Position numbers and translations under genes: made by a program. A stretch of DNA of 64,000 nt from Thioclava marina (lineage in GTDB: Bacteria; Pseudomonadota; Alphaproteobacteria; Rhodobacterales; Rhodobacteraceae). Shown in pieces: positions 12,309 to 24,169 of the stretch. Numbering within the stretch: the stretch's first letter is position 1; each line of letters opens with the position of its first letter. A model generated the notes under the pieces. The model ran no database searches. It had not been told where the DNA came from and saw only the letters and a program-made list of their open reading frames with translations. The stretch lies in NCBI RefSeq assembly GCF_002020135.1, contig NZ_MPZS01000001.1:806001-870000 (forward strand), read 5' to 3'.

Positions 12309-12728
12309 TCAGAGAGCCGCCAGCAGCATCCCCACCATCGCGAGCATCGCGAGGATCTGCGCGAAGTAGAAAGCGAAGCGCACGAAAATCACGGTATCGC
12401 TCTGCTCCAGCACGATATGGACGGTGCTTTGCAGGATACGCGCACCCAGAACGATCAGCGCCAGCGCATCGAGGGCGGGGCTCTCCAGGCCAACCCGGTC
12501 GATCACGTAGACGATCGTGCCGAAGACGGGAAGGTTCTCGATACAGTTCATATGCGCGCGCATCGCCCTCGGGTAGAGACCGGCGCCAGCGTTCGGATCG
12601 GCCGTCCAGTGGCTCGCGCGCGTGCGACCGCTGAGAATGCGCACCCAGCGATAGGGGCCGACGAAGGCAAAGAGAATGAGAAGAGTCCAGAGCGCGAAGC
12701 CAAGGAGTGCCAGAAGGGGGATTGTCAT
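12309..12728 (-). CDS. MAPEG-family membrane protein
   Basis: A 139-residue protein with four predicted membrane helices and the MAPEG pattern (RAMRAHMNCIENLPVFGTIV followed by ALIVLGARILQSTVHIVL). The family includes glutathione-dependent microsomal enzymes; bacterial members of this subgroup mostly have no known substrate. It is divergent from a MarR-like regulator gene with 143 bases between them, so that regulator may control it. Confidence 0.8.
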   Translation of the reverse strand: MTIPLLALLGFALWTLLILFAFVGPYRWVRILSGRTRASHWTADPNAGAGLYPRAMRAHMNCIENLPVFGTIVYVIDRVGLESPALDALALIVLGARILQSTVHIVLEQSDTVIFVRFAFYFAQILAMLAMVGMLLAAL

Positions 12729-12871
12729 CTTCGTCCTTTCCTGTGCGCGAAAACCCGAGCCAGTGTCGTCCGCGACTTGGCCTCGGGCGCGGGTCGCGTC
12801 ACTATTGGACCGCCCCTCCCCCGGAGGCCAAGCGACAACCTTTCCAGAGCGGAAACGTCAGGAAGTGACAG

Positions 12872-13321
12872 ATGACCCGGAACCGAGCCGAGACGATCTA
12901 CGACACCCCTCTCCCCGAGGAGTTGCGCCTTGCGGTGCGCGCGCAGACGCAGGCGCAGATCATCGAATGCCTCAACCGGTTCTACATGCTCGAGACCGAG
13001 ATGTGGGGCAAACCGGTGGATGCGCTGATCGTGCGGATGGTGGTGCAGGGGCGGCTTCAGGGGCGGCTTTATGATCTCAGCGCGCTCTCGGCCGCGCTCG
13101 GGCTTCCGATCGCCACGCTGCATCGCAAGGTCGCGGATCTTGTCGAAGGCGGGCATCTGCGCCGGGAGCGGCGGGGAAAATCCGTTTACCTCGTGCCGAC
13201 CGACGAAACCTGCGGGGCGCTCGATGAATCCTTCGAGGCCATGGTTGCGGCGCTGCGCCGCCTCTATCGCGGGGGCGTGCTGAAGGAGGGCGAAGGGGAC
13301 GGGCCTTTCTGTCCGCCCTGA
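12872..13321 (+). CDS. MarR-like winged-helix protein
   Basis: A 149-residue predicted DNA-binding protein. The winged helix is at about residues 45-115 (LYDLSALSAALGLPIATLHRKVADLVEGGHLRRERRGKSV, with the wing at RRERRGKSVYL). The flanking helices resemble MarR-type dimerisation helices (QAQIIECLNRFYML). Divergent from the MAPEG gene, which is its most likely target; the intergenic region holds an imperfect dyad around GTCGTCCGCGAC (12762-12773). No ligand can be named. Confidence 0.7.
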   Translation: MTRNRAETIYDTPLPEELRLAVRAQTQAQIIECLNRFYMLETEMWGKPVDALIVRMVVQGRLQGRLYDLSALSAALGLPIATLHRKVADLVEGGHLRRERRGKSVYLVPTDETCGALDESFEAMVAALRRLYRGGVLKEGEGDGPFCPP

Positions 13322-13527
13322 CGATCGCGACAGAGACCGGGGCGGGCGAAGAGGCGTCACGGATTTGCGTGCCCCGAGAGACGGCGGACGCGCCCGCTGC
13401 CCTCGATCGAACGGGGCGAGGTAGCTACGTGCGCCGACTGCGTTCGAGCCCCCCCGCGAAAAGCGGGAGGCTGGTCTGGTTTCGGGCAGGCCACGGCCCT
13501 ATCGCTTTGCCGGTCCTGCTTGCGCCC

Positions 13528-14565
13528 TCAGGCGTTGAGAATGACTTTCATCGCCTTCTCGCGCGCGGCATTCGAGAACACCTCATAGGCGTCGAGGATC
13601 TCATCGAGCTTGAAGCGGTGTGTCACGAGCTTGGCCGGGTCGACCTTGCCCGAACCCAGCGTCTTGAGAAGCATGGGCGTCGTGTTGGTGCTGACCAGCC
13701 CCATCGAGATGTTGATGTTCTTGATCCAGAGCTCTTCGATATGCAGCTCGACCGGCTTGCCATGCACGCCGACATTGGCGATCGAGCCACCGGCGGAGAC
13801 GATCTTCTGACAGGTATCGAAGGTCGCTGGCACGCCCACCGCCTCGATGGCGACATCCACGCCAAGCCCTCCGGTCATCTCCATGATCCGTGCGACGACA
13901 TCATCCGCCCCCACCTGAAGCGTGTCGGTCGCGCCGAATTGCTTCGCGAGTTCAAGACGCGCCGGGTCCATGTCGATCATCACGATCCGGCCCGGGGAAT
14001 AGAACTGCGCGGTCAGGAGAACCGACATCCCCACCGGCCCCGCGCCGATGATGGCAATCGTATCACCCGGTTTGACGCGGCCGTATTGCACACCGATCTC
14101 AAGCCCGGTCGGCATGATGTCGGAAAGCATCACCAGCGCCTCTTCATCGGCACCTTCCGGGATCGGATAAAGCGAGTTGTCGCCATGCGGGATGCGGACA
14201 TATTCCGCCTGCGTGCCGTCGATCAGGTGCCCGAGGATCCAGCCGCCATCGGAGCAATGGGCATAGAGCTGACGCTTGCAATTCGCGCATTTCCCGCAAG
14301 AGGTCACGCAGGAGATCAGCACCGGATCGCCGGGCTTGAAATTCGCCACGGCATCGCCGACCGCCTCGACGATACCGACGCCTTCGTGGCCCAGGGTGCG
14401 CCCGGGCGTGACCGCGGGCACATCGCCCTTGAGAATGTGAAGATCCGTGCCGCAGATCGTCGTCTTGGTGATCCGCACGATCACGTCGGTCGGTTTCTCG
14501 ATTTCGGGTTTTTCCTTTTCGACCCAGCTTTTCTGCCCCGGTCCGTTGTAAACAAGCGCCTTCAT
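13528..14565 (-). CDS. Zinc alcohol dehydrogenase, probable 2-propanol dehydrogenase
   Basis: A 345-residue medium-chain zinc dehydrogenase. Catalytic zinc ligands Cys38, His60 and Glu61 (TICGTDLH; GHEGVG), structural zinc ligands Cys90, Cys93, Cys96 and Cys104, and a Rossmann GAGPVG at 174-179 are all present. The family oxidises primary or secondary alcohols with NAD(P). It follows acxC on the same strand after a terminator, has its own leader with a good ribosome site (GGGAGG), and carries the same palindrome as the acxA and acxR leaders. I therefore infer that it oxidises 2-propanol to acetone for the carboxylase. Family sure; substrate inferred. Confidence 0.85.
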   Translation of the reverse strand: MKALVYNGPGQKSWVEKEKPEIEKPTDVIVRITKTTICGTDLHILKGDVPAVTPGRTLGHEGVGIVEAVGDAVANFKPGDPVLISCVTSCGKCANCKRQLYAHCSDGGWILGHLIDGTQAEYVRIPHGDNSLYPIPEGADEEALVMLSDIMPTGLEIGVQYGRVKPGDTIAIIGAGPVGMSVLLTAQFYSPGRIVMIDMDPARLELAKQFGATDTLQVGADDVVARIMEMTGGLGVDVAIEAVGVPATFDTCQKIVSAGGSIANVGVHGKPVELHIEELWIKNINISMGLVSTNTTPMLLKTLGSGKVDPAKLVTHRFKLDEILDAYEVFSNAAREKAMKVILNA

Positions 14566-14644
14566 GACACGCCTCCCAGCCTGTGTTCGCGGGCCGGTTC
14601 ACCGGCCCCGGATGCGACCCTAGCGGCACCAGCGGCAGCGCGCC

Positions 14645-14661
14645 TGTCCGGTTTTCGGACA
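14645..14661. promoter_or_regulatory. Putative AcxR operator upstream of the alcohol dehydrogenase
   Basis: TGTCCG-GTTTT-CGGACA, a perfect 6-5-6 inverted repeat (7-5-7 if one more base on each side is counted). It lies 80 bases before the dehydrogenase start. A further CGGACA half-site is at 14679-14684. Near-identical palindromes precede acxA and acxR. Confidence 0.7.
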
Positions 14662-14686
14662 GCCCGTGCGAGAGCCGTCGGACACC

Positions 14687-14720
14687 AAAAAGCGCCGCGC
14701 ATCCTGAAGATGCGCGGCGC
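14687..14720 (-). terminator. Rho-independent terminator after acxC
   Basis: Perfect 12-base arms (14692-14703 and 14709-14720) around a 5-base loop, followed on the minus strand by five T, 19 bases after the acxC stop. It separates acxABC from the dehydrogenase transcript. Confidence 0.9.
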
Positions 14721-14738
14721 CAGTCTCGGGGCGCCCGA

Positions 14739-15242
14739 TCAGGCGGCCCGCTCGGGGATCTTGAGGCCCAGCCAGTCGGTGTAGAAGGCGTCGATATCGG
14801 GCTCGAAATCATGGATCACCGGATACCAGGGCGTCGGCGCCTCGACATCGAGCAGATCGCCCGATTTCGGACAGTAATATTCCCGGATCACCTGCCAGTC
14901 CGAAGAAGGCGCCATCAGCTTGGGATAGAGCTCTTCCATTTCCTCGGGGGTTTCTCGGACGCGCATCACCGCGTGCAGCTTCCAGTTCTCGCGCCAGTCG
15001 CAGAATTCGTGACCGGCCTGCGATTTGACCACCCATTTCTTGTCCGAGGCCCGCTGTACGATATAGAGCTTGGGCCCGAGCGGCAGAATGATCCTGTCAT
15101 CCCACGGGACCTGCTCTTGCAGGATCTCGAGATATTTGACGAAGCGATCCGCATCCTTGGGCGTGGAGAGCATCGTCTGCAGGGTGTCGCGGTCGATCTT
15201 GCCATCGACCAGATCTTTGATCTTCGCTTTCGTGTAAGCCAT
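14739..15242 (-). CDS. acxC: Acetone carboxylase gamma subunit
   Basis: A 167-residue small subunit of the acetone carboxylase complex, which makes acetoacetate from acetone and bicarbonate using ATP. It matches the family over its whole length (MAYTKAKIKDLVDGKIDRDT; CDWRENWKLHAVMRVRETPE; REYYCPKSGDLLDVEAPTPW), including cysteines in FCDW and YYCPKSG suited to metal binding. It is the last gene of the acxABC transcript, starts 61 bases after acxB with AGGAGAAAA as ribosome site, and is followed by a strong terminator. Confidence 0.95.
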   Translation of the reverse strand: MAYTKAKIKDLVDGKIDRDTLQTMLSTPKDADRFVKYLEILQEQVPWDDRIILPLGPKLYIVQRASDKKWVVKSQAGHEFCDWRENWKLHAVMRVRETPEEMEELYPKLMAPSSDWQVIREYYCPKSGDLLDVEAPTPWYPVIHDFEPDIDAFYTDWLGLKIPERAA

Positions 15243-15303
15243 TGCTTTTCTCCTGAGTTTCTCGGGGCGCCGTGCGGGGAGGCGGATACGGCGCCCCGCG
15301 GGA

Positions 15304-17613
15304 TCATTCCTCGACGAACTTGACGGTCTTCACGTCCGGCAGATCGGAGAGGTCCATGGAATATTCGCGACCATAGGAGGGGATCGGCAGATCCTCTTCC
15401 TTCAGTTGCCACTCCTCGGGCAGATCCCAGAACTTGCGGAACCCTTCCTCCCATTTCGGGCCGAGCTTGAAGCTCGCCGCGAACATCTGCTGGACATGGG
15501 TGCCTGCGTCCTTCGCGAGGATGCGTTCGCGTTCCCTAGCCATCCACTCGCGGGTCGGCTGGGCCTTGGCCAGACGGTCCTTGCGGATTTGCGCGCGCAA
15601 CGCCTCGGTGCCCGCCTCATCCGCCGCGAACAGGCCATCGGCCCCTTTCGCGAGCACGACGCCGTAGACCGTCTCGGCGAAGCGTTCGAGCAGGTAGCCG
15701 CCATTCACATCCTCGGCCACCGACTGCGCCTCGCGATCAAGCGGATCGCCGAAGCCCGGACCACCACGCATGTAGTTGAGGTAGAGGTCGTAATCCTTGA
15801 ACATCTCCTCGGTGGTGATCGCCTGCTTGTCGCGCTTGATGCCCTCGGGGTTCACCATCGCGTCATAGGTCGGGTGTTCGGGATCGGTATCGCCGCCGAA
15901 GGGAATGGGATCACCGTTGGCGATCTTTTCCTTCAGCCCCGTGTCATGGGCCGCGAAGCGATAGCCCGAAGCCGCCGGATAGCCGCCCATCAGCCCCCAG
16001 TCGGAGCTGATATGGCCGTTGCCCATGAAGAACATCGTCCAGTCCTTCGCATTCCAGACCATGCGCAGGGATTCAAAGCCGCAGCCGCCGCGATACTTGC
16101 CCGCGCCGCCCGAACTGGCCTTGATCTGGCGACCCAGATAGACCAGCGGTTCGGCCAGCTCCCAGATCTCCATATCGCCCATGTCGCCTTCGGGGTTCCA
16201 GATCGCCGCCGCGTGGCTGATGCCGTCGGCGATGGCGCTGGCGCCGACCCCGTTGGCCGCGCATTCGAAGGAGTTCACCGCATGGATCTCGTCATACTGG
16301 TTGAACCCGCCGCCCTGCAGCCAGTTCGAGGTATTGGCGTTGCCCGCGTTCACCTCTTCGAGATAGCCGCGCCCGAAATAGCTGCGCGAGAGCCCGCGCC
16401 AGAGCGCCGTCCAGCTTGAGACCAGGAAGTGCCAGCTATAGGCGAAGGCCACGCGCCGGTCGTCGGGGTTCATCCAGGTGCCCTTGGGCAGGCGAAACTC
16501 GGTCCCGTAGGCGGCCCCGTCATTGATCATCTCGGTCGGGATCAGGGTCTGGGTCATCATCACCCAGATACCCGAGGTGAACGAGACCGAATGGGCGTTG
16601 TAGGTGTGCCAGCCCCAGCGTGACGAGCCCTCGAAATCGAGCCGCCAAGTCCCGTCCTTGCGGATCGTCATCTCGGAGGGAGTGTGCATGATCGTGTCGA
16701 CCTTGGCGAAATCCGAAGGCACGCGCACGTCTTCATGGTTGTAGGGCACGTCGACGAAGCCGACCTGACGATAGGTGCCCGGGATGGTCATCGCCTTGAT
16801 CCGGTTCTGCAGACCGATCCGGCCATGCTCGACCGCCTCATAGGCGAATTTCCAATAGGCCTCGATCCCCTCCTCGGCGATCACCTCCTCGACCAGCTTG
16901 CGGATCATGTGGCAGCCGGCGACGCGGGTGCGTTCGTCTAGCATCCAGTAGCGCGTGGTGCGCACCGCGCGCTGGCTCTCATGCAGCCAGTCGCGTTTCA
17001 GCTCGTCATTCTCGCCGATCTTGCGGCAGGTCACCGAATAGCCGTCGCCGAAGCGCTGCACCTGACCCGTCGTCATCGAGCCCGGGCCGACCGCGCCGGT
17101 GTCGATCACATGGGTCACGCCGCCGACCCAGCCGATCAGCTCGCCCTCGTGGAAGATCGGCACGATGGTGTGGATGTCGCACGGATGGACATTGCCGATC
17201 AGGCTGTCATTGTTGCAGAAGATATCCTTGTCCTTGATCCCCGGATTACTCTCCCAGTCGTTCTCGATCATGTATTTGATCGCGGCGCCCATGGTGCCGA
17301 CATGGATGATGATCCCGGTCGAGGTCAGGATGGAATCCCCGGCCGCGTTATAGAGGGTGAAGCACAGCTCGCCCTCCTGCTCCACGATCGGGGACGCGGC
17401 GATCTTCTTCGCGGTTTCGCGCGCATCGACAACGCCGGCCCGCAAGCGCGAGAACAGCTTGTTGTAGAGGATCGGGCTTTCCTTGTGCAGCGCCCGTTCC
17501 GTGAGCCCGGCATAATGCCCGGTGCCCTTGGTCTTGGCCATGATCTCGTCGCGGTGCTGCTTGAGCGTTTGACCGCCACGGACGATGCCCTTGATGTCAG
17601 TTTGCATATTCAT
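15304..17613 (-). CDS. acxB: Acetone carboxylase alpha subunit (HyuB-like)
   Basis: A 769-residue large subunit of the hydantoinase-B/HyuB type. Typical blocks are IVRGGQTLKQHRDEIMAKTK near the N-terminus, DKDIFCNNDSLIGNVHPCDI, GRDYGWW-like sequences replaced by SSRWGWHTYNAHSVSF, and YLNYMRGGPGFGDPLDREAQ. In acetone carboxylase this subunit holds the manganese site where activated acetone and bicarbonate are joined. It begins 21 bases after the acxA stop with GGAGGAAG as ribosome site, so acxA and acxB are surely one transcript. Length fits the family. Confidence 0.95.
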   Translation of the reverse strand: MNMQTDIKGIVRGGQTLKQHRDEIMAKTKGTGHYAGLTERALHKESPILYNKLFSRLRAGVVDARETAKKIAASPIVEQEGELCFTLYNAAGDSILTSTGIIIHVGTMGAAIKYMIENDWESNPGIKDKDIFCNNDSLIGNVHPCDIHTIVPIFHEGELIGWVGGVTHVIDTGAVGPGSMTTGQVQRFGDGYSVTCRKIGENDELKRDWLHESQRAVRTTRYWMLDERTRVAGCHMIRKLVEEVIAEEGIEAYWKFAYEAVEHGRIGLQNRIKAMTIPGTYRQVGFVDVPYNHEDVRVPSDFAKVDTIMHTPSEMTIRKDGTWRLDFEGSSRWGWHTYNAHSVSFTSGIWVMMTQTLIPTEMINDGAAYGTEFRLPKGTWMNPDDRRVAFAYSWHFLVSSWTALWRGLSRSYFGRGYLEEVNAGNANTSNWLQGGGFNQYDEIHAVNSFECAANGVGASAIADGISHAAAIWNPEGDMGDMEIWELAEPLVYLGRQIKASSGGAGKYRGGCGFESLRMVWNAKDWTMFFMGNGHISSDWGLMGGYPAASGYRFAAHDTGLKEKIANGDPIPFGGDTDPEHPTYDAMVNPEGIKRDKQAITTEEMFKDYDLYLNYMRGGPGFGDPLDREAQSVAEDVNGGYLLERFAETVYGVVLAKGADGLFAADEAGTEALRAQIRKDRLAKAQPTREWMARERERILAKDAGTHVQQMFAASFKLGPKWEEGFRKFWDLPEEWQLKEEDLPIPSYGREYSMDLSDLPDVKTVKFVEE

Positions 17614-17634
17614 TGGTTCTTCCTCCCTTGGCCG

Positions 17635-19788
17635 TCACACTTCTTTCAGATGGAACAGGCGGTGACCGTCGAGCCATGTCTCGAACCCTCCCGGCACGAC
17701 GAAGGTCGTGGCGTCGGATTCGATGATCGCGGGACCGGTGACCCGGTTGCCGGGCACGAGCCTTTCCATCTGGTAGAGCTGCGCATCGACCCATTTGCCC
17801 TTGCGATAGAATTTGCGGGTGCCGAGCTTGGCCTCGTCCGGCGGGGTCGGGCTACCTTCTTCCTCCTTGGGGATGTTGGGTTTCGGGATCGGCACGGTGC
17901 CGCGCATGATCGCGCCGGTGATCGAATAGCCCAGCTCGGGCGAACGCGCCGAGGCGGCATAGACCCGCCCGTAAGTGTCGTTGAACGCATCGACGAGCTT
18001 GTCCCAGTCCGCCGCCGTCTTTGCCGACTCGATCGGGCTTTCGATCTCGAGATCGTTGAGCTGGCCGCGATACTGCATCCGGTAGCCGGGTTGCAGCGTG
18101 ACCTGATCGCGCGAATAGCCGTTGAGTTCGAACTCCTCGAGCACGCGCTCAGCCAGTTCGTGCCAGGCGTCGTTCAGGGTCTTCGCCTCGATCTCCTTGG
18201 CATCGTCCGACGCCTCTTCGGCGATGTTCACGTCGAGCGACTTGTCGTAGCGATATTCGAAATCCGCCGCGGCGCAGCCGAAGGCCGAGAAGCCCGCAGC
18301 CCAGGCCGGAACGATCACGTCCTCGAAGCCCAGGCCTTCGGTATAGCCATAGGTATGGACCGGACCGGCCCCGCCATAGCTGAAGCAGGTGAAGGAGGAC
18401 GGCGAATAGCCCTTGCCCGAGATCATCGAGCGCAGATAATCGCGCAGGTCGCTGTCCAGAAGCTCGATGACGCCCGCCGCCGCTTCCTCGACCGTCAACC
18501 CGAGCGGATCGGCGATCTGTTCCTTCATGGCATCATAGGCGCGCTGCCGGTCGAGCTTGACCTGACCGCCGAGGAAGTTGTCGGGGTTCAGGTAACCCAG
18601 AATGACGTGGCAATCCGAGATCGTCACCGTGTCGATGCCGCTATCGGCCCAGCACACGCCGACCCGATAGCCCGCGCTGTCGGGACCAAGCTTGATCGCC
18701 TTGGTATACGGATCGAGGCGGATGAAGCTGCCCGCTCCTGCGCCCACGGAATCAAGCCCCACGAGCGGCAGCGACAGCACCAGCCGCGCCATGTCGGGGT
18801 CGTTCTGGATCGTCAGTTCGCCTTGCGTGATCAGCGCCACGTCGAAGGAGGTCCCGCCGATATCCGAGCAGGCGATGTTCTTGTAGCCCAGAACCTCGCC
18901 GAGATATTTCGCGCCGATCACGCCGCCGATCGGCCCCGAGACGATGGTGCGCGCCAGCTCCTTCGCCTTCCAGCTGATCGTGCCGCCATGCGTGGCCATC
19001 ACCCGGAAATCGAATTTCGAGCCATTGTCCTTGAACGCGGCCGAGATCTTCTTGAGCGTCTGGCGCGAGGGCTCGGCGGCGAAGGCCTCGAGCACGGTGG
19101 TATTGGTGCGGTGGGTCTCCTTGCGCACCGGGTAGTAATCGGTCGAGGCGAAGACCGGGATCTGCTTGCCCGATTTCTCGACCTCCTCGGCCACGATATC
19201 GCGCACCCGGCGCTCATGCGCGGGGTTCTTGTAGCTGTGCAGAAGCGAGATCACGATGCCCTCGACATCCTGCGCGATCAGCTCCTGCGCCGCGCTGCGC
19301 GCCGTGTCCTCGCGCAGCGGAATGACCACGTCGCCGAACATGTCCACGCGCTCCATCACGCCGCGCGTCAGGTGACGCGGCACGAGCGGATCGTCATAGT
19401 AATGGGTGTTGAGGTGGATGCGGTCCTCGTAGGCCATCCCCAGATAGGCCTGACAGGCGCGACCCATGCGGTGGAAATCCTCCATCCCCGCATTGACGAT
19501 CAGCCCGGTCTTGAGCCCCTTGCGCTGCACCACGCGATTGAGCATCGCGGTGCCGGAATAAACCCCGGTCTGGATCGAGCCCAGCGCCTCCTCCAGCGAC
19601 AAGCCCCAGTGCTCCAGCCCTTCGCGGCTCGACTCGATGAGGCCGCGCGCTTCGTTATCCGGCGTCGATTGCGCCTTGCCGACGACGAATTCCCCATCCG
19701 CATCGACAAAAAACGTGTCAGTCATCGTCCCGCCCGCGTCGATGCCCAGCACCTGCACGGAACGGCTGTTTTTCTTGTCCAGTGGCAC
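17635..19788 (-). CDS. acxA: Acetone carboxylase beta subunit (HyuA-like ATPase)
   Basis: A 717-residue subunit of the HyuA type, the length usual for this subunit. The ATP-binding ASKHA pattern is VLGIDAGGTMTDTFFVDADG near the N-terminus, with YSGTAMLNRVVQRKG, SDIGGTSFDVALI and SYGGAGPVHTYGY further on. It phosphorylates bicarbonate and acetone for coupling in the alpha subunit. I use the GTG at 19788 because GGAGG lies 9 bases before it; the open frame runs on upstream to 20028 without family similarity and through the regulatory region. First gene of acxABC. Confidence 0.93.
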   Translation of the reverse strand: MPLDKKNSRSVQVLGIDAGGTMTDTFFVDADGEFVVGKAQSTPDNEARGLIESSREGLEHWGLSLEEALGSIQTGVYSGTAMLNRVVQRKGLKTGLIVNAGMEDFHRMGRACQAYLGMAYEDRIHLNTHYYDDPLVPRHLTRGVMERVDMFGDVVIPLREDTARSAAQELIAQDVEGIVISLLHSYKNPAHERRVRDIVAEEVEKSGKQIPVFASTDYYPVRKETHRTNTTVLEAFAAEPSRQTLKKISAAFKDNGSKFDFRVMATHGGTISWKAKELARTIVSGPIGGVIGAKYLGEVLGYKNIACSDIGGTSFDVALITQGELTIQNDPDMARLVLSLPLVGLDSVGAGAGSFIRLDPYTKAIKLGPDSAGYRVGVCWADSGIDTVTISDCHVILGYLNPDNFLGGQVKLDRQRAYDAMKEQIADPLGLTVEEAAAGVIELLDSDLRDYLRSMISGKGYSPSSFTCFSYGGAGPVHTYGYTEGLGFEDVIVPAWAAGFSAFGCAAADFEYRYDKSLDVNIAEEASDDAKEIEAKTLNDAWHELAERVLEEFELNGYSRDQVTLQPGYRMQYRGQLNDLEIESPIESAKTAADWDKLVDAFNDTYGRVYAASARSPELGYSITGAIMRGTVPIPKPNIPKEEEGSPTPPDEAKLGTRKFYRKGKWVDAQLYQMERLVPGNRVTGPAIIESDATTFVVPGGFETWLDGHRLFHLKEV

Positions 19789-19869
19789 GAAAAACTCCTC
19801 CCTTAGCCAAAGCCGGCCCGACCTGGGCGCGGCTGAGTCACAGGATGGCGGCGTGATTTCAGGTCGCGG

Positions 19870-19909
19870 TGTCCGATTTTCGACGGGTCTGACGGACACG
19901 CTGCGGACA
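19870..19909. promoter_or_regulatory. Putative AcxR operator cluster upstream of acxA
   Basis: A palindrome-like site TGTCCG-ATTTT-CGACGG at 19870-19886 is followed by two CGGACA half-sites at 19893-19898 and 19904-19909, one helical turn (11 bp) apart. The cluster lies 82-121 bases before the acxA start. No -24/-12 (GG-N10-GC) promoter is visible between it and the gene. Confidence 0.65.
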
Positions 19910-20004
19910 CGAAATCGCGGCGAAGGTCGGCCCGATACGGCCATATCGAGGGCCACCCGGGAAGAGCTGTCGAAACGTTCAGCTCGGAATGTCTTCAATG
20001 ATAG

Positions 20005-20035
20005 GAAAATCCCGTGAGTGATCGTCACTCACGGG
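20005..20035 (-). terminator. Rho-independent terminator after acxR
   Basis: Perfect 11-base arms (20011-20021 and 20025-20035) around TCG, followed on the minus strand by ATTTTCC, 29 bases after the acxR stop. It makes acxR a separate transcript from acxABC. Confidence 0.85.
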
Positions 20036-20064
20036 TCGCAGGGGGATTGCCGCCCCATAGGCCT

Positions 20065-21861
20065 TCAGACCTTTTGCGATCGCGCGATCCCGAAACTGTC
20101 GAGCTTGAGATAGAGCGTCGAGCGCGCGATCCCGAGGCGGCGCGCGACCTGAGAGAGATTGCCGTTCTCGGCAGCGATCGCGCTGATGATTTCGGCCCGT
20201 TCCAGATCACGCAAAGTCGTCTCCGCCCCGTTTCGCGTGTCGCGCTGACGGAACTCCGGCGGGAGCGTCCGGTCATCAATGAGCCCGGTCGGGGACAAGG
20301 CGTCGAGTGTTGCGACAAGGTTGCGCATCTCGCGGATATTGCCGGGCCAGGCATAGGCTTTCAGAGCATCCATCGCACCGGACGTGAAGCGAATTTCGCG
20401 ACCGCATTGCCTTGCGCTGTGACAACGGACGAGCTGCTGGAGAAGCGGCGCGATCTCTTCGGGGCGCTCACGCAGAGGCGGAATGTGGAGCCGCACCCCG
20501 GCGATCCGATAGTAGAGATCGCTTCGGAAAGCCCCTTTGCGCATTTCGTCATAGAGCGAACGCTGCGACAGGGAGATGATACGCATTCCACGCAAGGAGG
20601 CCTGCTCGACCGCCGCCAGCAAGAGCTTCTGAACGGGCGCGATCGCGGCGCCCGGGCTGTTGAGGCACAGCACCCCGACTTCCAATCCGTAGCGAGCCTC
20701 GGCGAGATCCTCGCGAAGCCCCGCTTCCGTCAGTTGCGGGCAATCGATGAGGGTGAAGGGACCCTCGGCTTCGGTGCTCGCGTGATGAATGGCTTCCGCC
20801 AGATAGGTCTTCCCGGTTCCCGTCTCGCCTTCGATGAGGATCGGGATCGTGGTCTGCGCGAGCTTTCGGGCCTGAGCGCAAAGCCGCGCGCTCGCCTCTC
20901 CGAGCTTGCTTGCCTGATCCAGCTGCGCCGACATATCGAGGGCCTTCGCGCGGCGTTGCCGCATGCAGAGCATGACACCGATCGCCTCGCCCTGATCCTC
21001 GATCACCTCCAGATCCGCGCCATGCAGGCAATCGGAAAGAGTTTCGGCGATCGTGTCCGGGGTCTGGTCGATGATTTGGGGCACCTGACCGCGCAGCCAT
21101 GTGAGCGCTTCATCATCCTCGCAGAACCGCGCGAAATCCTCGGTCGCGAAGACATCCGCGCCGCTGCGATCCATGATCAGCAACGGATCATTCCCCCGAC
21201 GCAGACGCCGCAAGTGGATGCGTTCGGCCAGAGTTTCGCGTTCACGCGAAACCATGCGGGTCAGTTCCGTCTCCACCTGCAATGCCAGCGCGGCGGACAA
21301 GGCGGCCGCGCTGGTCTGATGAAGAGCTTCCGGCCAGGAGATATCGACCACCCCGAGGAGCCGGCCGGTCCCCGGCTCGGCGATCGGCGTCGCGACACAG
21401 TTCCATCTCTGGATCGCTTCGCAGAAATGTTCCGCCTCGCGGATCATGACCGGAAGCCCCAGCTTGATCGACGTTCCGATCGCGTTGGTCCCGATGGCCT
21501 CCTCGGTCCATTGCCCGCCAAGGTTCAGATGGTTTTCGCTGCCGCGCGCGAGTGTCCGGCTGTCGCCGACGGCGTCGAGCACCACCCCCGCATCATCGCA
21601 GAGCAACAGGATCTCGCCGCTTTTGTTCAGCAGTCGCCCGGCGCGCTGCAGCGCCGTGTGCGCGCCGCGGCGCAACCGGCGCGCAGATGTTCGCTGCGCC
21701 GCCAATTCATCTTCCGTCAGGGTCGGCGCAAATCTGAGATGGGAAAAGGAATGGCGCGCGGAACGCTTCCAGCTCTCGAGAACCTCAAGGCGGATCTGGC
21801 GTGGAACCCGCCCTACGGCCATGAAGTCTTCCCAATCTCCCTTCTGTACTGTCTGCTCCAT
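20065..21861 (-). CDS. acxR: AcoR/AcxR-type activator of acetone metabolism, AAA+ domain degenerate
   Basis: About 598 residues. A GAF-type sensor region (about 70-200, with WTEEAIGTNAIGT), a PAS-like segment (220-310), an AAA+ domain (about 335-500) and a C-terminal Fis helix-turn-helix (about 570-592, LSQVARRLGIARSTLYLKLD). Walker A GETGTGKT is intact at 345-352 and the arginine region DLYYRIAGVRLHIPPLRERPEE is kept. The stretch between Walker A and Walker B is ~25-30 residues shorter than usual, lacks GAFTGA, and Walker B reads VLCLNS without the Asp-Glu pair. It therefore probably does not work with sigma-54. It precedes acxABC on the same strand and likely binds the TGTCCG palindromes. 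Start at 21861 after GGGGAGGAG. Confidence 0.88.
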   Translation of the reverse strand: MEQTVQKGDWEDFMAVGRVPRQIRLEVLESWKRSARHSFSHLRFAPTLTEDELAAQRTSARRLRRGAHTALQRAGRLLNKSGEILLLCDDAGVVLDAVGDSRTLARGSENHLNLGGQWTEEAIGTNAIGTSIKLGLPVMIREAEHFCEAIQRWNCVATPIAEPGTGRLLGVVDISWPEALHQTSAAALSAALALQVETELTRMVSRERETLAERIHLRRLRRGNDPLLIMDRSGADVFATEDFARFCEDDEALTWLRGQVPQIIDQTPDTIAETLSDCLHGADLEVIEDQGEAIGVMLCMRQRRAKALDMSAQLDQASKLGEASARLCAQARKLAQTTIPILIEGETGTGKTYLAEAIHHASTEAEGPFTLIDCPQLTEAGLREDLAEARYGLEVGVLCLNSPGAAIAPVQKLLLAAVEQASLRGMRIISLSQRSLYDEMRKGAFRSDLYYRIAGVRLHIPPLRERPEEIAPLLQQLVRCHSARQCGREIRFTSGAMDALKAYAWPGNIREMRNLVATLDALSPTGLIDDRTLPPEFRQRDTRNGAETTLRDLERAEIISAIAAENGNLSQVARRLGIARSTLYLKLDSFGIARSQKV

Positions 21862-22316
21862 CTTCTCCTCCCCGAAAAGACAGGTCATCAGAGCAAGCCA
21901 ACGGACCTTCTCGCTCCGGAAAGCCTCCGCACTGATTCAGAATACACGAATCATGCGGCCGTGGATGCTGGACACTTTCATAGCAAAGACGATGAAATCC
22001 GAGTGTCCGATTTTCGGACGCCCGCAGCATCCCCCCAAATGACGGCTGTCGGCCGGAGCGTCTTCTTCCGCCACCTTTTTTCGCGGTGCACCTGCGTCGC
22101 GTCTGACGCCCCGTCACGGCCGCGCGATGGCCGCGCTCCGTGCGCGCCGAAAGGGAGCCCCGCCCCCTCTGCGACGAAGCCCCCGAGAGGTCTGACACTG
22201 GTATTGGATCTGCGCTCACGCCTTCGTGATCGCGCCCGAGTGATCGCTATCCCGCCTCTCCTGCGTAGCCCTTGCACCAGACGGAAACACTCCGTCACAT
22301 CACAGGGAGAACCACT
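21862..22316. other. Intergenic region between acxR and the fasciclin gene
   Basis: 455 bases between divergent genes. It holds the AcxR-like palindrome at 22004-22020 and a TGGACA half-site at 21969-21974, both nearer acxR. The fasciclin side has a ribosome site GGGAG before 22317. I see no further gene and no clear -35/-10 pair. Confidence 0.6.
22004..22020. promoter_or_regulatory. Putative AcxR operator upstream of acxR
   Basis: TGTCCG-ATTTT-CGGACG, a 6-5-6 inverted repeat with one mismatch, 143 bases before the acxR start. It shares TGTCCG-ATTTT-CG with the acxA site and the overall palindrome with the dehydrogenase site, suggesting autoregulation. Confidence 0.65.
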
Positions 22317-22889
22317 ATGTCTTTGAACTTCCGCGCATTTGTCGCGTCGATTTCGGCTGCCGCAACGCTTGCTGTCGCGGGCCCTGCCCTTGCGGACGAT
22401 CACATGAACCCGATGGTCGGCGGCGCCAAGATGTACGAGAGCAAGCCGATCGCGGCCAATGCCTCGGCGGCGCCGAACCTGACCACGCTCGTCGCGGCCG
22501 TGAAAGCTGCGGGCCTCGTCGAGACCCTGTCCGGCCCCGGCCCCTTCACCGTCTTCGCGCCGACCAATGACGCGTTCGACAAGCTGCCCGCGGGCACCGT
22601 CGAGACGCTGGTCAAGCCCGAGAACAAGGAGACGCTGACGAAGATCCTGACCTGCCATGTGGCATCGGGCGTGATCACCGCCGAGAACATCGTGGCGACG
22701 ATCGAAAAGGGCAAAGGCATGGCCAAGATCGAGACGCTTGGCGGGTGCGAGCTGACGGCCACGATGAAGGATGGCATGGTGATGCTCACCGCTCCCAAGG
22801 GCGATGTCGCGACCGTCGAGACGGCCGATGTGCGCCAGTCGAACGGCATGGTCCACGTGATCTCGACCGTGATGCTGCCGAAGATGTAA
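22317..22889 (+). CDS. Secreted fasciclin (FAS1) domain protein
   Basis: A 190-residue exported protein. A Sec signal peptide (about residues 1-25, ending near GPALADD) is followed by one FAS1 domain at about 50-188, with LTTLVAAVKAAGLVETLSGPG, FTVFAPTNDAFDKLPAG and the C-terminal SNGMVHVISTVMLP. Single FAS1 proteins of this kind are common in bacteria and may mediate adhesion; no specific partner is known. GGGAG precedes the start and a terminator follows. Confidence 0.88.
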   Translation: MSLNFRAFVASISAAATLAVAGPALADDHMNPMVGGAKMYESKPIAANASAAPNLTTLVAAVKAAGLVETLSGPGPFTVFAPTNDAFDKLPAGTVETLVKPENKETLTKILTCHVASGVITAENIVATIEKGKGMAKIETLGGCELTATMKDGMVMLTAPKGDVATVETADVRQSNGMVHVISTVMLPKM

Positions 22890-22913
22890 GCCCGCTCCCT
22901 TAGGGTTTGCGAG

Positions 22914-22950
22914 AAACGCCCGGTCGGCCTCTGGCCTTCCGGGCGTTTTG
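22914..22950 (+). terminator. Terminator after the fasciclin gene
   Basis: Arms AAACGCCCGG (22914-22923) and CCGGGCGTTT (22939-22948) pair perfectly and are followed by TTG, 24 bases after the stop codon. Confidence 0.75.
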
Positions 22951-22964
22951 CTGCGCGATCCCTC

Positions 22965-22993
22965 TTGACCGGGCGCGGCGCCTGACTTACCTC
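22965..22993 (+). promoter_or_regulatory. Candidate promoter of tRNA-Gly
   Basis: TTGACC (22965-22970), a 17-bp spacer and TACCTC (22988-22993), 14 bases before the mature tRNA end. The -10 is poor but the -35 and distance fit, and the same TTGACC-GGGCGC string occurs at 2950. Confidence 0.45.
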
Positions 22994-23007
22994 TGCGCTC
23001 GCACCAT

Positions 23008-23081
23008 GCGGGTATGATGTAATGGTAGCCTGTCAGCTTCCCAAGCTGAACGCGCGGGTTCGATTCCCGCTACCCGCTCCA
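23008..23081 (+). tRNA. tRNA-Gly (anticodon CCC)
   Basis: Cloverleaf read by eye: acceptor GCGGGTA pairs with TACCCGC, anticodon stem TCAGC/GCTGA holds a seven-base loop TTCCCAA with anticodon CCC, and the T arm contains GGTTCGATTCC. The 3' CCA is encoded (23079-23081). It decodes GGG. Confidence 0.93.
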
Positions 23082-23089
23082 AGCTCCCC

Positions 23090-24169
23090 TCAGTTCGGAA
23101 CCAGCCGGTAGAGCGTGCCGTCATCGGCGTCTTCGATGATCCAGACCTGCCCCTGTGGACCGACCGCAACATCGCGCACGCGCATCTCGAGATCCCAGCG
23201 CGCAAGCTGGTCCGAGCCATCTCCAGCGATCAGCGCCACGCCGCTCCCCGCCAATCCACCGATCAGCATATCGCCTTGCCATTGCGGGAAGTCGCCGCCC
23301 TCGTAGACCGCCATCCCGGAGGGTGCGATAACCGGCGTCCACCACAGCTTCGGCGGCTCGAACTCGGGCCGGGTATTGTGATCGGGGATCGGCAGACCCG
23401 AATAGTGCGTCCCGTTGGAGACTTCGTTCCATCCGTAATTCTTCCCCGGCTCGATCAGGTTCAGCTCGTCGCCGCCGCGCGGGCCCATCTCATGCTCCCA
23501 AAGCTTGCCATCGGGGGTGAAGGCAAGGCCGTAGGCATTGCGATGCCCCTCGGTCCAGGTCTCGGCGCGAACGCCGCCTTTGTCGTAGTTCGGATTGCCC
23601 GGCGCGGCTTTGCCGTCGCGGGTGAGCCTCAGGATCTTGCCGCGCGGATTGTCGGGATCTTGCGCGGTGTCGGGCTGCATCCGGTCGCCCACGCTGAGAT
23701 AGAGCATCCCGTCCGGCCCGAAAGCGATGATCCCGCCGGGCTGACCGCGTCCTCCGGGCGTCTGCTGCCAGAGCGTCTTCAGGCCCGCGATCCGGTCGCC
23801 GTCGAGCGTCCCGCGCGCCAGAACAAGCGCGTTCCCGCGCGAGACATAGGTCAGATAGACTTCGCGCGTCGCATCGAAATCAGGCGGCACCGCCACGTCG
23901 AGCAAGCCGTTCTGGCCGCGATACTGGACCTTCGGCAGGCCCGACAACTCCCGCGCCCCCGAAGGGCCGACATGCCACATCCGCCCCGCCTTGCCCGTGA
24001 CCAGCACCGAAGCATCGGGCAGCGCCGCGATCGCCCAGGGGTTCTGCAATTCGGCCACGGCTTTGAGCGTAAAGGGCCAGTCGCGCGTAGCCGGTTTCTC
24101 GCCCACGTTTTGCGCGAAAGCGGGTGCGGCCAGCGCAAGGCTCAGTAACAAACTCGAGAAACGGGTCAT
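23090..24169 (-). CDS. PQQ-dependent sugar (aldose) dehydrogenase, periplasmic
   Basis: A 359-residue exported protein: signal peptide at 1-22 (MTRFSSLLLSLALAAPAFAQ), then a soluble-glucose-dehydrogenase type six-bladed propeller. Family blocks are LQNPWAIAALPDASVLVTGKAGR, GPDGMLYLSVGDR, AYGLAFTPDGKLWEHEMGPRGGDELN and GKNYGWNEVSNG. E. coli YliI-type members oxidise aldoses with PQQ and calcium in the periplasm. No pqq genes are in the window. AGGAGG precedes the ATG at 24169; a GTG two codons earlier is less likely. Confidence 0.88.
   Translation of the reverse strand: MTRFSSLLLSLALAAPAFAQNVGEKPATRDWPFTLKAVAELQNPWAIAALPDASVLVTGKAGRMWHVGPSGARELSGLPKVQYRGQNGLLDVAVPPDFDATREVYLTYVSRGNALVLARGTLDGDRIAGLKTLWQQTPGGRGQPGGIIAFGPDGMLYLSVGDRMQPDTAQDPDNPRGKILRLTRDGKAAPGNPNYDKGGVRAETWTEGHRNAYGLAFTPDGKLWEHEMGPRGGDELNLIEPGKNYGWNEVSNGTHYSGLPIPDHNTRPEFEPPKLWWTPVIAPSGMAVYEGGDFPQWQGDMLIGGLAGSGVALIAGDGSDQLARWDLEMRVRDVAVGPQGQVWIIEDADDGTLYRLVPN

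Follow-up and report, generated by a model that had tools for sequence, protein, structure and literature searches.

A TGTCCG-N5-CGGACA operator at the acetone carboxylase island of Thioclava marina points to a probable sigma-70 activator of sigma-54 activator ancestry

The activators of sigma-54 RNA polymerase are obligatory and ATP-driven, and the activators of sigma-70 polymerase mostly act by recruiting it. The conversion of such a remodeller into a recruiter is, to our knowledge, known mainly from its end products, e.g. TyrR and the NtrC of Rhodobacter capsulatus. Here we consider this conversion in a stretch of 64,000 nucleotides from Thioclava marina (contig NZ_MPZS01000001.1, positions 806,001 to 870,000; the whole stretch is called the window below), where the regulator gene acxR, the acetone carboxylase genes acxA, acxB and acxC and a zinc-dependent alcohol dehydrogenase gene form an island with all genes on the minus strand. 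The closest described systems are those of Xanthobacter autotrophicus Py2 and Cupriavidus metallidurans CH34, whose AcxR proteins, according to passages of PMC2864759, have the GAFTGA motif, with a sigma-54 promoter lying between acxR and acxA; the same passages give, as a personal communication, that the Cupriavidus enzyme is induced on acetone and 2-propanol. As in these systems (passages of PMC2864759), the AcxR gene of the window stands beside acxABC, and the palindrome TGTCCG-N5-CGGACA that marks the island is also found before acxA in the Xanthobacter loci examined. Unlike in these systems as described in the same passages, both GAFTGA and the sigma-54 promoter are absent from the window. 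We consider it likely that AcxR is a class II activator of the sigma-70 polymerase at this palindrome, i.e. a former sigma-54 remodeller that has kept its operator.

GAFTGA-less regulators as such are already known, and those acting with sigma-70 make up a functional group rather than a single sequence family. The NtrC proteins of R. capsulatus and Caulobacter lack GAFTGA and work at sigma-70 promoters according to passages of PMC10274813, which also say that the R. capsulatus protein requires the binding of ATP and not its hydrolysis, a need that would fit the kept Walker A and lost Walker B motifs of AcxR. NtrC is however a two-component nitrogen regulator, while AcxR has a GAF domain and adjoins one catabolic operon. 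According to passages of PMC3162934, TyrR, DhaR and HupR are homologous to sigma-54 activators, have a defective GAFTGA and depend on sigma-70; these passages draw no comparison with a counterpart of the operon under sigma-54. Of the NCBIfam models, DhaR matches AcxR best, yet at 217 bits the match stays far below the cut-off of 551, and AcxR is no member of it by this model. VpsR of Vibrio cholerae has no GAFTGA and acts with the sigma-70 polymerase in vitro (passages of PMC10274813 and PMC9303241, the latter terming it sigma-54 dependent elsewhere); unlike AcxR, it works with cyclic di-GMP and has other target genes, as given in these passages. Paracoccus denitrificans has a tested activator, EtgR, which was considered as a further GAFTGA-less precedent and rejected: its presumed frame in locus L175, assigned by the neighbouring dehydrogenase, reads NAFTGA and so sets no precedent. 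The acetone carboxylase of P. denitrificans is strongly raised on ethylene glycol according to passages of PMC12214560, and the locus of strain DSM 413 (L025) has the GAFTGA-less type of AcxR. In the titles and abstract openings of open-licence papers, among the matches listed, we found neither a GAFTGA-less AcxR nor this operator, and a matched pair of both states at one operon was likewise not found in the open-licence literature among the matches listed.

The AcxR of the window lacks the sigma-54-contacting loop and part of its ATPase motif. The gene (20065..21888, minus strand) encodes a GAF, AAA+ and Fis-type helix-turn-helix (HTH) regulator, as confirmed by domain searches, with the sigma-54-interaction and Fis-type HTH domains above the cut-off (PF02954, PF00158 and PF14532); its open frame begins at 21888, and its probable start, judged by eye, is the ATG at 21861 behind GGGGAGGAG. 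GAFTGA, i.e. the loop, is absent, and Walker B reads LCLNSP where the loop-bearing relatives have LCLDE or similar, with Walker A retained. We kept 80 of 356 AcxA relatives as loci, 75 of which hold an AcxR-like gene (none was seen in L018, L026, L062, L066 and L083); as AcxR of each locus we took whatever the window AcxR matched best by tblastn within the fetched stretch, and its gene does not always adjoin acxA. The loci are related, so the counts are not independent, and L007, a near-copy of the window island, is counted as one locus. The loop is present in 43 of the 75 proteins (39 with GAFTGA, three with GSFTGA and one with GTFTGA) and absent in 32. All 75 proteins have Walker A; the Walker B pair DE is present in each of the 43 loop-bearing proteins and in 16 of the 32 loop-less ones, and the 16 proteins without an intact pair form exactly one clade, including that of the window, with support 100. 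In a tree of 71 rows, made by a quick method with the loop columns removed and a midpoint root for drawing, loop loss is one change nested among loop-bearing proteins with support 91; the rows of L045, L048, L054 and L056, which have cut or shifted frames, are left out of the tree but included where loops and Walker motifs are counted. Long branches are flagged in the tree, one of them where L038 and L039 join the other proteins, so the loop may have been lost there a second time. The AcxR proteins of these two Rhodovulum loci have no GAFTGA and retain LCLDE. Their acxA promoters are rich in half-sites and contain neither a sigma-54 element nor a palindrome of up to two mismatches; the two loci could represent an intermediate or a second loss. 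The genome of T. marina carries two sigma-54 (rpoN) genes, so a missing sigma-54 does not explain the loss of the loop or the change of promoter.

The promoters of acxA are of two types, which track the regulator gene rather than the genus. A sigma-54 -24/-12 element, scored with our own weighting of the consensus at a threshold of at least 17.5, was found before acxA in 41 of the 43 loop-bearing loci (0.93 expected); the two failures are L079, with masked bases upstream, and L053, with a score of 17.0. None of the 32 loop-less loci has such an element before acxA (0.79 expected, best score 17.0). Expectations here and below come from shuffles that preserve base composition only, except for the dinucleotide shuffles used for the window motif and hairpin counts; L062, whose contig begins inside acxA, is absent from all upstream counts. 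Among the 43 loop-bearing loci, 29 have the palindrome, with its end 65-110 bp (median 76) upstream of the -24 element, a position like that expected of an enhancer. Chelatococcus (L015/L055) and Acidocella (L028/L074) each have one species of either promoter type. With GAFTGA and the Walker B pair lost, AcxR most likely no longer remodels the sigma-54 polymerase from a distant enhancer, and sigma-54 control of the window copy was rejected. It is very improbable that AcxR still uses sigma-54 with its sites as ordinary enhancers: the AAA+ domain match, the kept Walker A and the two rpoN genes would agree with it, but AcxR has neither the loop nor the Walker B pair, the element is absent from all 32 promoters and the sites lie close to the start.

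The initial annotation had placed the palindrome in all three promoter regions of the island, and our data agree for two of them. The putative operator of the dehydrogenase (14645..14661, TGTCCGGTTTTCGGACA) is an exact palindrome without mismatches, and that of acxR (22004..22020, TGTCCGATTTTCGGACG), kept in part of the relatives, has one mismatch. The third site, before acxA (19870..19886, TGTCCGATTTTCGACGG), was rejected as a palindrome and is better called a degenerate operator: its right arm (CGGACA on the minus strand, 19870-19875) is intact, while the left one (19881-19886) is decayed and matches at two of its six bases, which makes four of the 12 arm bases differ and leaves a single arm. 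The near-identical copy in L007 also has four mismatches. Two TGTCCG half-sites 11 bp apart are present before acxA at 19904..19909 and 19893..19898 on the minus strand; the distances between sites and starts, put at 80-145, were measured as coordinate differences to the start codon of 80 for the dehydrogenase, 82 for acxA and 116 or 143 for acxR, depending on the start codon chosen; and the terminator-like hairpins after acxR (20011..20035, 11-pair stem) and acxC (14691..14721, 14-pair stem), both on the minus strand and T-tailed, have the longest stems among the six found in the window. Dinucleotide shuffles give 5.3 such hairpins; the number is thus no higher than in shuffles, and therefore the stem length and the position carry the weight. 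A further half-site is seen upstream of the dehydrogenase operator (14679..14684, minus strand).

The palindrome is rare in its exact form and conserved upstream of the acx genes. It occurs in the exact 6-5-6 form at one place in the 3.65 Mb genome and with one mismatch at six more, and two of these seven best places are in the island, 7.4 kb apart. The genome has three exact copies of the core GTCCGRNNNYCGGAC: the island contains two of them, and the third falls within overlapping open reading frames. A regulon extending past the island was considered and rejected: with at most one mismatch the core has 27 places against 69 for the reversed control, so a wider regulon is not indicated. In relatives we scanned for palindromes with at most two mismatches within 300 bp upstream. 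At the loci with a GAFTGA-less AcxR the palindrome was found upstream of acxA in 23 of 32 (0.66 expected), of all eight linked dehydrogenases (0.12 expected) and of acxR in 12 of 32 (0.59 expected); at the GAFTGA-type loci it was found upstream of acxA in 29 of 43 (0.69 expected) and of acxR in 12 of 43 (0.73 expected), where divergent acxR and acxA genes may share a site and one palindrome may be counted upstream of both. A reading of the palindromes as chance matches or repeats without a role could lean on the loose matches, which show no excess in the window (39 with at most three mismatches against 43 expected from dinucleotide shuffles) or in the genome (123 with at most two mismatches, where the reversed pattern gives 174), but this conservation, with a fixed spacing across many genera, gives it a next to negligible probability.

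The spacing of the palindrome to a -10-like hexamer suggests a class II arrangement. Class II activator sites centre near -41.5 at promoters with a -10 and a weak or no -35. Our -10 geometry set holds 45 palindromes, i.e. 25 of acxA, eight of dehydrogenases and 12 of acxR, the acxA ones including those of L018 and L026, in which no AcxR was seen. A first -10 test covered acxA sites at 60-95 bp from the start with up to four mismatches; the repeat dropped this preselection and took every palindrome that had no more than two mismatches and stood 50 bp or more from the start. A hexamer with A at its second and T at its sixth position lies 21 or 22 bp downstream of 38 of the 45 palindromes, as compared to 3.6 in shuffles (maximum 10 in 2000 shuffles), and the best alternative pair of offsets gives 8 of 45. 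By gene, it is found for 25/25 of acxA (shuffle maximum 7), 9/12 of acxR (shuffle maximum 6) and 4/8 of the dehydrogenases, which equals the shuffle maximum of 4 and is indecisive alone. The predicted -10 elements of the window, all on the minus strand, are TAGGGT of the dehydrogenase (14617..14622, 22 bp past the operator), CATCCT of acxA (19842..19847, 22 bp) and TATGAA of acxR (21977..21982, 21 bp), and each offset is found in relatives as well. If the hexamer is taken as the -10, the centre of the palindrome would be at about -42/-43, over the place of the -35. A -35 sought at spacers of 14-20 gave a mean match to TTGACA of at most 1.92 of 6. The geometry, with start sites being predicted, would fit that of class II: a site near the predicted -42, a -10-like hexamer and no -35.

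The half-sites before acxA are likewise phased with the operator. The half-site test and the first -10 test share 32 acxA promoters, 30 with a GAFTGA-less AcxR plus those of L018 and L026, with L066, L083, L038 and L039 omitted. Relative to the GTCCG of the left arm, a direct GTCCG is found at -23 in 30 of the 32 and at -12 in 30 of the 32 (both in 28), and either half-site of the window is in this register; in the 29 promoters of the loop-bearing type no single place holds GTCCG in more than three. The left arm is decayed (2-4 mismatches) in the closest relatives L007-L014, L065 and L069, and the half-sites are mostly retained there. This arrangement bears on the possibility that AcxR is a repressor over the -35 region, released by acetone, which we regard as unlikely. 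A site overlapping the predicted footprint of the polymerase would suit a repressor, and the GAFTGA-less NtrC of Caulobacter is reported in passages of PMC10274813 to repress some promoters. Against a repressor, promoters with no -35 should be weak unaided, the loop-bearing AcxR goes with sigma-54 promoters, which need an activator, and recruitment is suggested by the pair of additional phased half-sites at acxA.

The presence of the motif follows the recognition helix of AcxR, which supports AcxR as the predicted binder. Of 58 loci whose AcxR has the helix [AS]RSTLY, 54 carry the palindrome before acxA or acxR. The share is 4 of 8 with AKSTLY (several of the other four show a CGTYCG-type variant by eye), 0 of 4 with the [AT]TFY helix seen in the Geobacter group, and 4 of 5 where the helix is another or unread. 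AcxR would thus be the probable binder, and another regulator of the genome could instead bind the palindrome while AcxR acts elsewhere. A similar 17-mer in other genomes of the family would agree with this. The exact A/T-centred palindrome occurs in 28 of 394 genomes of the family, and 23 of the 27 loci fetched besides that of the window match one prophage-looking replication/HTH gene (a call made by eye), with the palindrome inside the match, so the sequence is not exclusive to the surroundings of AcxR; L142 and L145 are acx or dehydrogenase loci, L128 is at another gene and L131 has no query match. However, the motif lies near AcxR genes across very different hosts, two of the three unlinked motif-bearing dehydrogenases adjoin an AcxR paralogue of their own, and the motif goes with the helix; we judge a different binder to be distinctly improbable. 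The prophage-like gene, in 23 of the loci L127-L153 and at 5593-5785 of L156, was seen to hold one to three in-frame palindromes, often 83 and 93 bp apart, which perhaps form an origin inside an initiator gene.

The dehydrogenase appears to be an optional member of the same regulon. The gene (13528..14565, minus strand) was recognized by domain search, and the palindrome stands before all 11 orthologues examined with at least 86% identity, i.e. eight linked ones, including the near-copy in L007, and three unlinked ones of Pseudodonghicola, Sinirhodobacter ferrireducens and S. populi. The S. ferrireducens gene was located through the palindrome and is thus not an independent test; that of S. 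populi was found through the protein and that of Pseudodonghicola through both. The Pseudodonghicola and S. ferrireducens genes adjoin an AcxR paralogue of 36-37% identity, and no such paralogue was seen within the 1.5 kb examined in S. populi. In 10 genomes searched, from the 72 loci without a linked dehydrogenase, an orthologue was found in two, so the enzyme is an optional partner. The closest solved structure is 5yln, an unspecified zinc alcohol dehydrogenase (489 bits), and isopropanol dehydrogenases reach at most 163 bits; 2-propanol is proposed as the substrate from co-regulation. The small regulon put forward by the initial annotation, with AcxR as its probable binder, is well supported by the sequence comparison, since the motif stands before acxA, before 11 of 11 dehydrogenases and before 12 of 32 acxR genes, far above shuffles. 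It also withstood the check that had been proposed with it, as the motif proved conserved before acx orthologues (e.g. acxA in 23/32 and 29/43); the part that did not hold in general is the autoregulation of acxR. The initial annotation had noted neither the absent GAFTGA nor the promoter geometry of sigma-70 type.

The reading of AcxR as a class II activator draws together the motif, its conservation, the absence of GAFTGA and of the sigma-54 promoter, the -10 spacing, the shared helix and the regulator tree, and several points weigh against it. Binding, start sites and expression are all deduced from sequence, and a site at -42 suits a repressor as well. The loss of the loop and the change of promoter fall on one branch, so that their match across loci amounts to about a single evolutionary event rather than many. 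Twenty of the 32 GAFTGA-less acxR genes have no palindrome, hence autoregulation is not general, and a canonical -35/-10 before acxR occurs in 2 of 18 without the palindrome and 2 of 12 with it, i.e. without contrast. The acxA operator of the window itself has its left arm decayed. The right arm CGGACA matches TTGACA at four of six bases, yet it is 21-22 bp from the -10, past the usual spacing. Among the dehydrogenases, the unlinked L155 and L154 have TAnnnT only at 44 and 45 bp and not at 22, the unlinked L181 (S. populi) has TAGAAA at 22 with the final T absent, and the linked L029 and L008 have TTTCCG at 22 and TAGAAT at 20, respectively.

The genes acxA (17635..19788, GTG start, hydantoinase-A type subunit of acetone carboxylase, PF01968), acxB (15304..17613, hydantoinase-B type subunit, PF02538) and acxC (14739..15242, gamma subunit, PF08882), all on the minus strand, are in the order A, B, gamma, which is the same in relatives with sufficiently long stretches. 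A stem begins at the predicted 5' end of the messages: that of acxA (19811..19834, minus strand) lies directly before the ribosome-binding site and is also seen in relatives including L007, and that of the dehydrogenase is at 14591-14608. Such stems are found for 32/32 of acxA (20.7 expected), 8/8 of the dehydrogenases (4.4) and 10/12 of acxR (7.7), with differing sequences, and they are possibly message stabilisers. The fasciclin-domain gene at 22272-22889 is divergent from acxR. The island is part of a 10.9 kb block (12434-23351) that shares 99.25% identity with Paracoccus binzhouensis (L007), and no AcxA orthologue was found in 15 other genomes of the genus, where the proteins among the matches listed have 27-33% identity; this points to a recent horizontal transfer of the block. 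A tRNA-Gly gene (23008-23081) lies near one edge of the block. In the genome of T. marina, C3:276796-278838 encodes another protein of hydantoinase-A type, which has 30% identity to AcxA.

We propose that AcxR, as a descendant of the sigma-54 activator superfamily that lost GAFTGA and, in the clade of the window, the Walker B pair, would bind TGTCCG-N5-CGGACA through its Fis-type HTH domain, would sense acetone or a related signal by its GAF domain, and would then activate three transcripts, i.e. acxABC, the dehydrogenase and acxR. Sitting at about -42, over the missing -35, it would recruit the sigma-70 holoenzyme to promoters with a -10 only, and at acxA the two further half-sites, 11 and 12 bp apart, may lengthen the array upstream. 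The binding by AcxR, the use of sigma-70, activation instead of repression, acetone as the inducer and 2-propanol as the substrate are what we infer from these data. Somewhat less confidently, we favour a sigma-factor switch matched at one operon, in which the operator moved from about 76 bp upstream of a sigma-54 promoter to -42 of a sigma-70-type one and gained two half-sites, the loop was lost first and the ATPase later in one clade, and regulator and promoter spread together as a cassette between genera.

If this is true, the acetone carboxylase loci would present both end states, and possibly intermediates (Rhodovulum L038 and L039), of the change from an ATP-driven activator to a simple recruiter. 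Dozens of genomes, among them species pairs of one genus, show the same operon and operator in one state or the other, so the promoter geometry, the number of half-sites and the ATPase motifs are each open to separate tests. The 17-bp operator with its promoter geometry is a candidate for acetone-responsive expression, and the finding links one family of dehydrogenases to the use of acetone.

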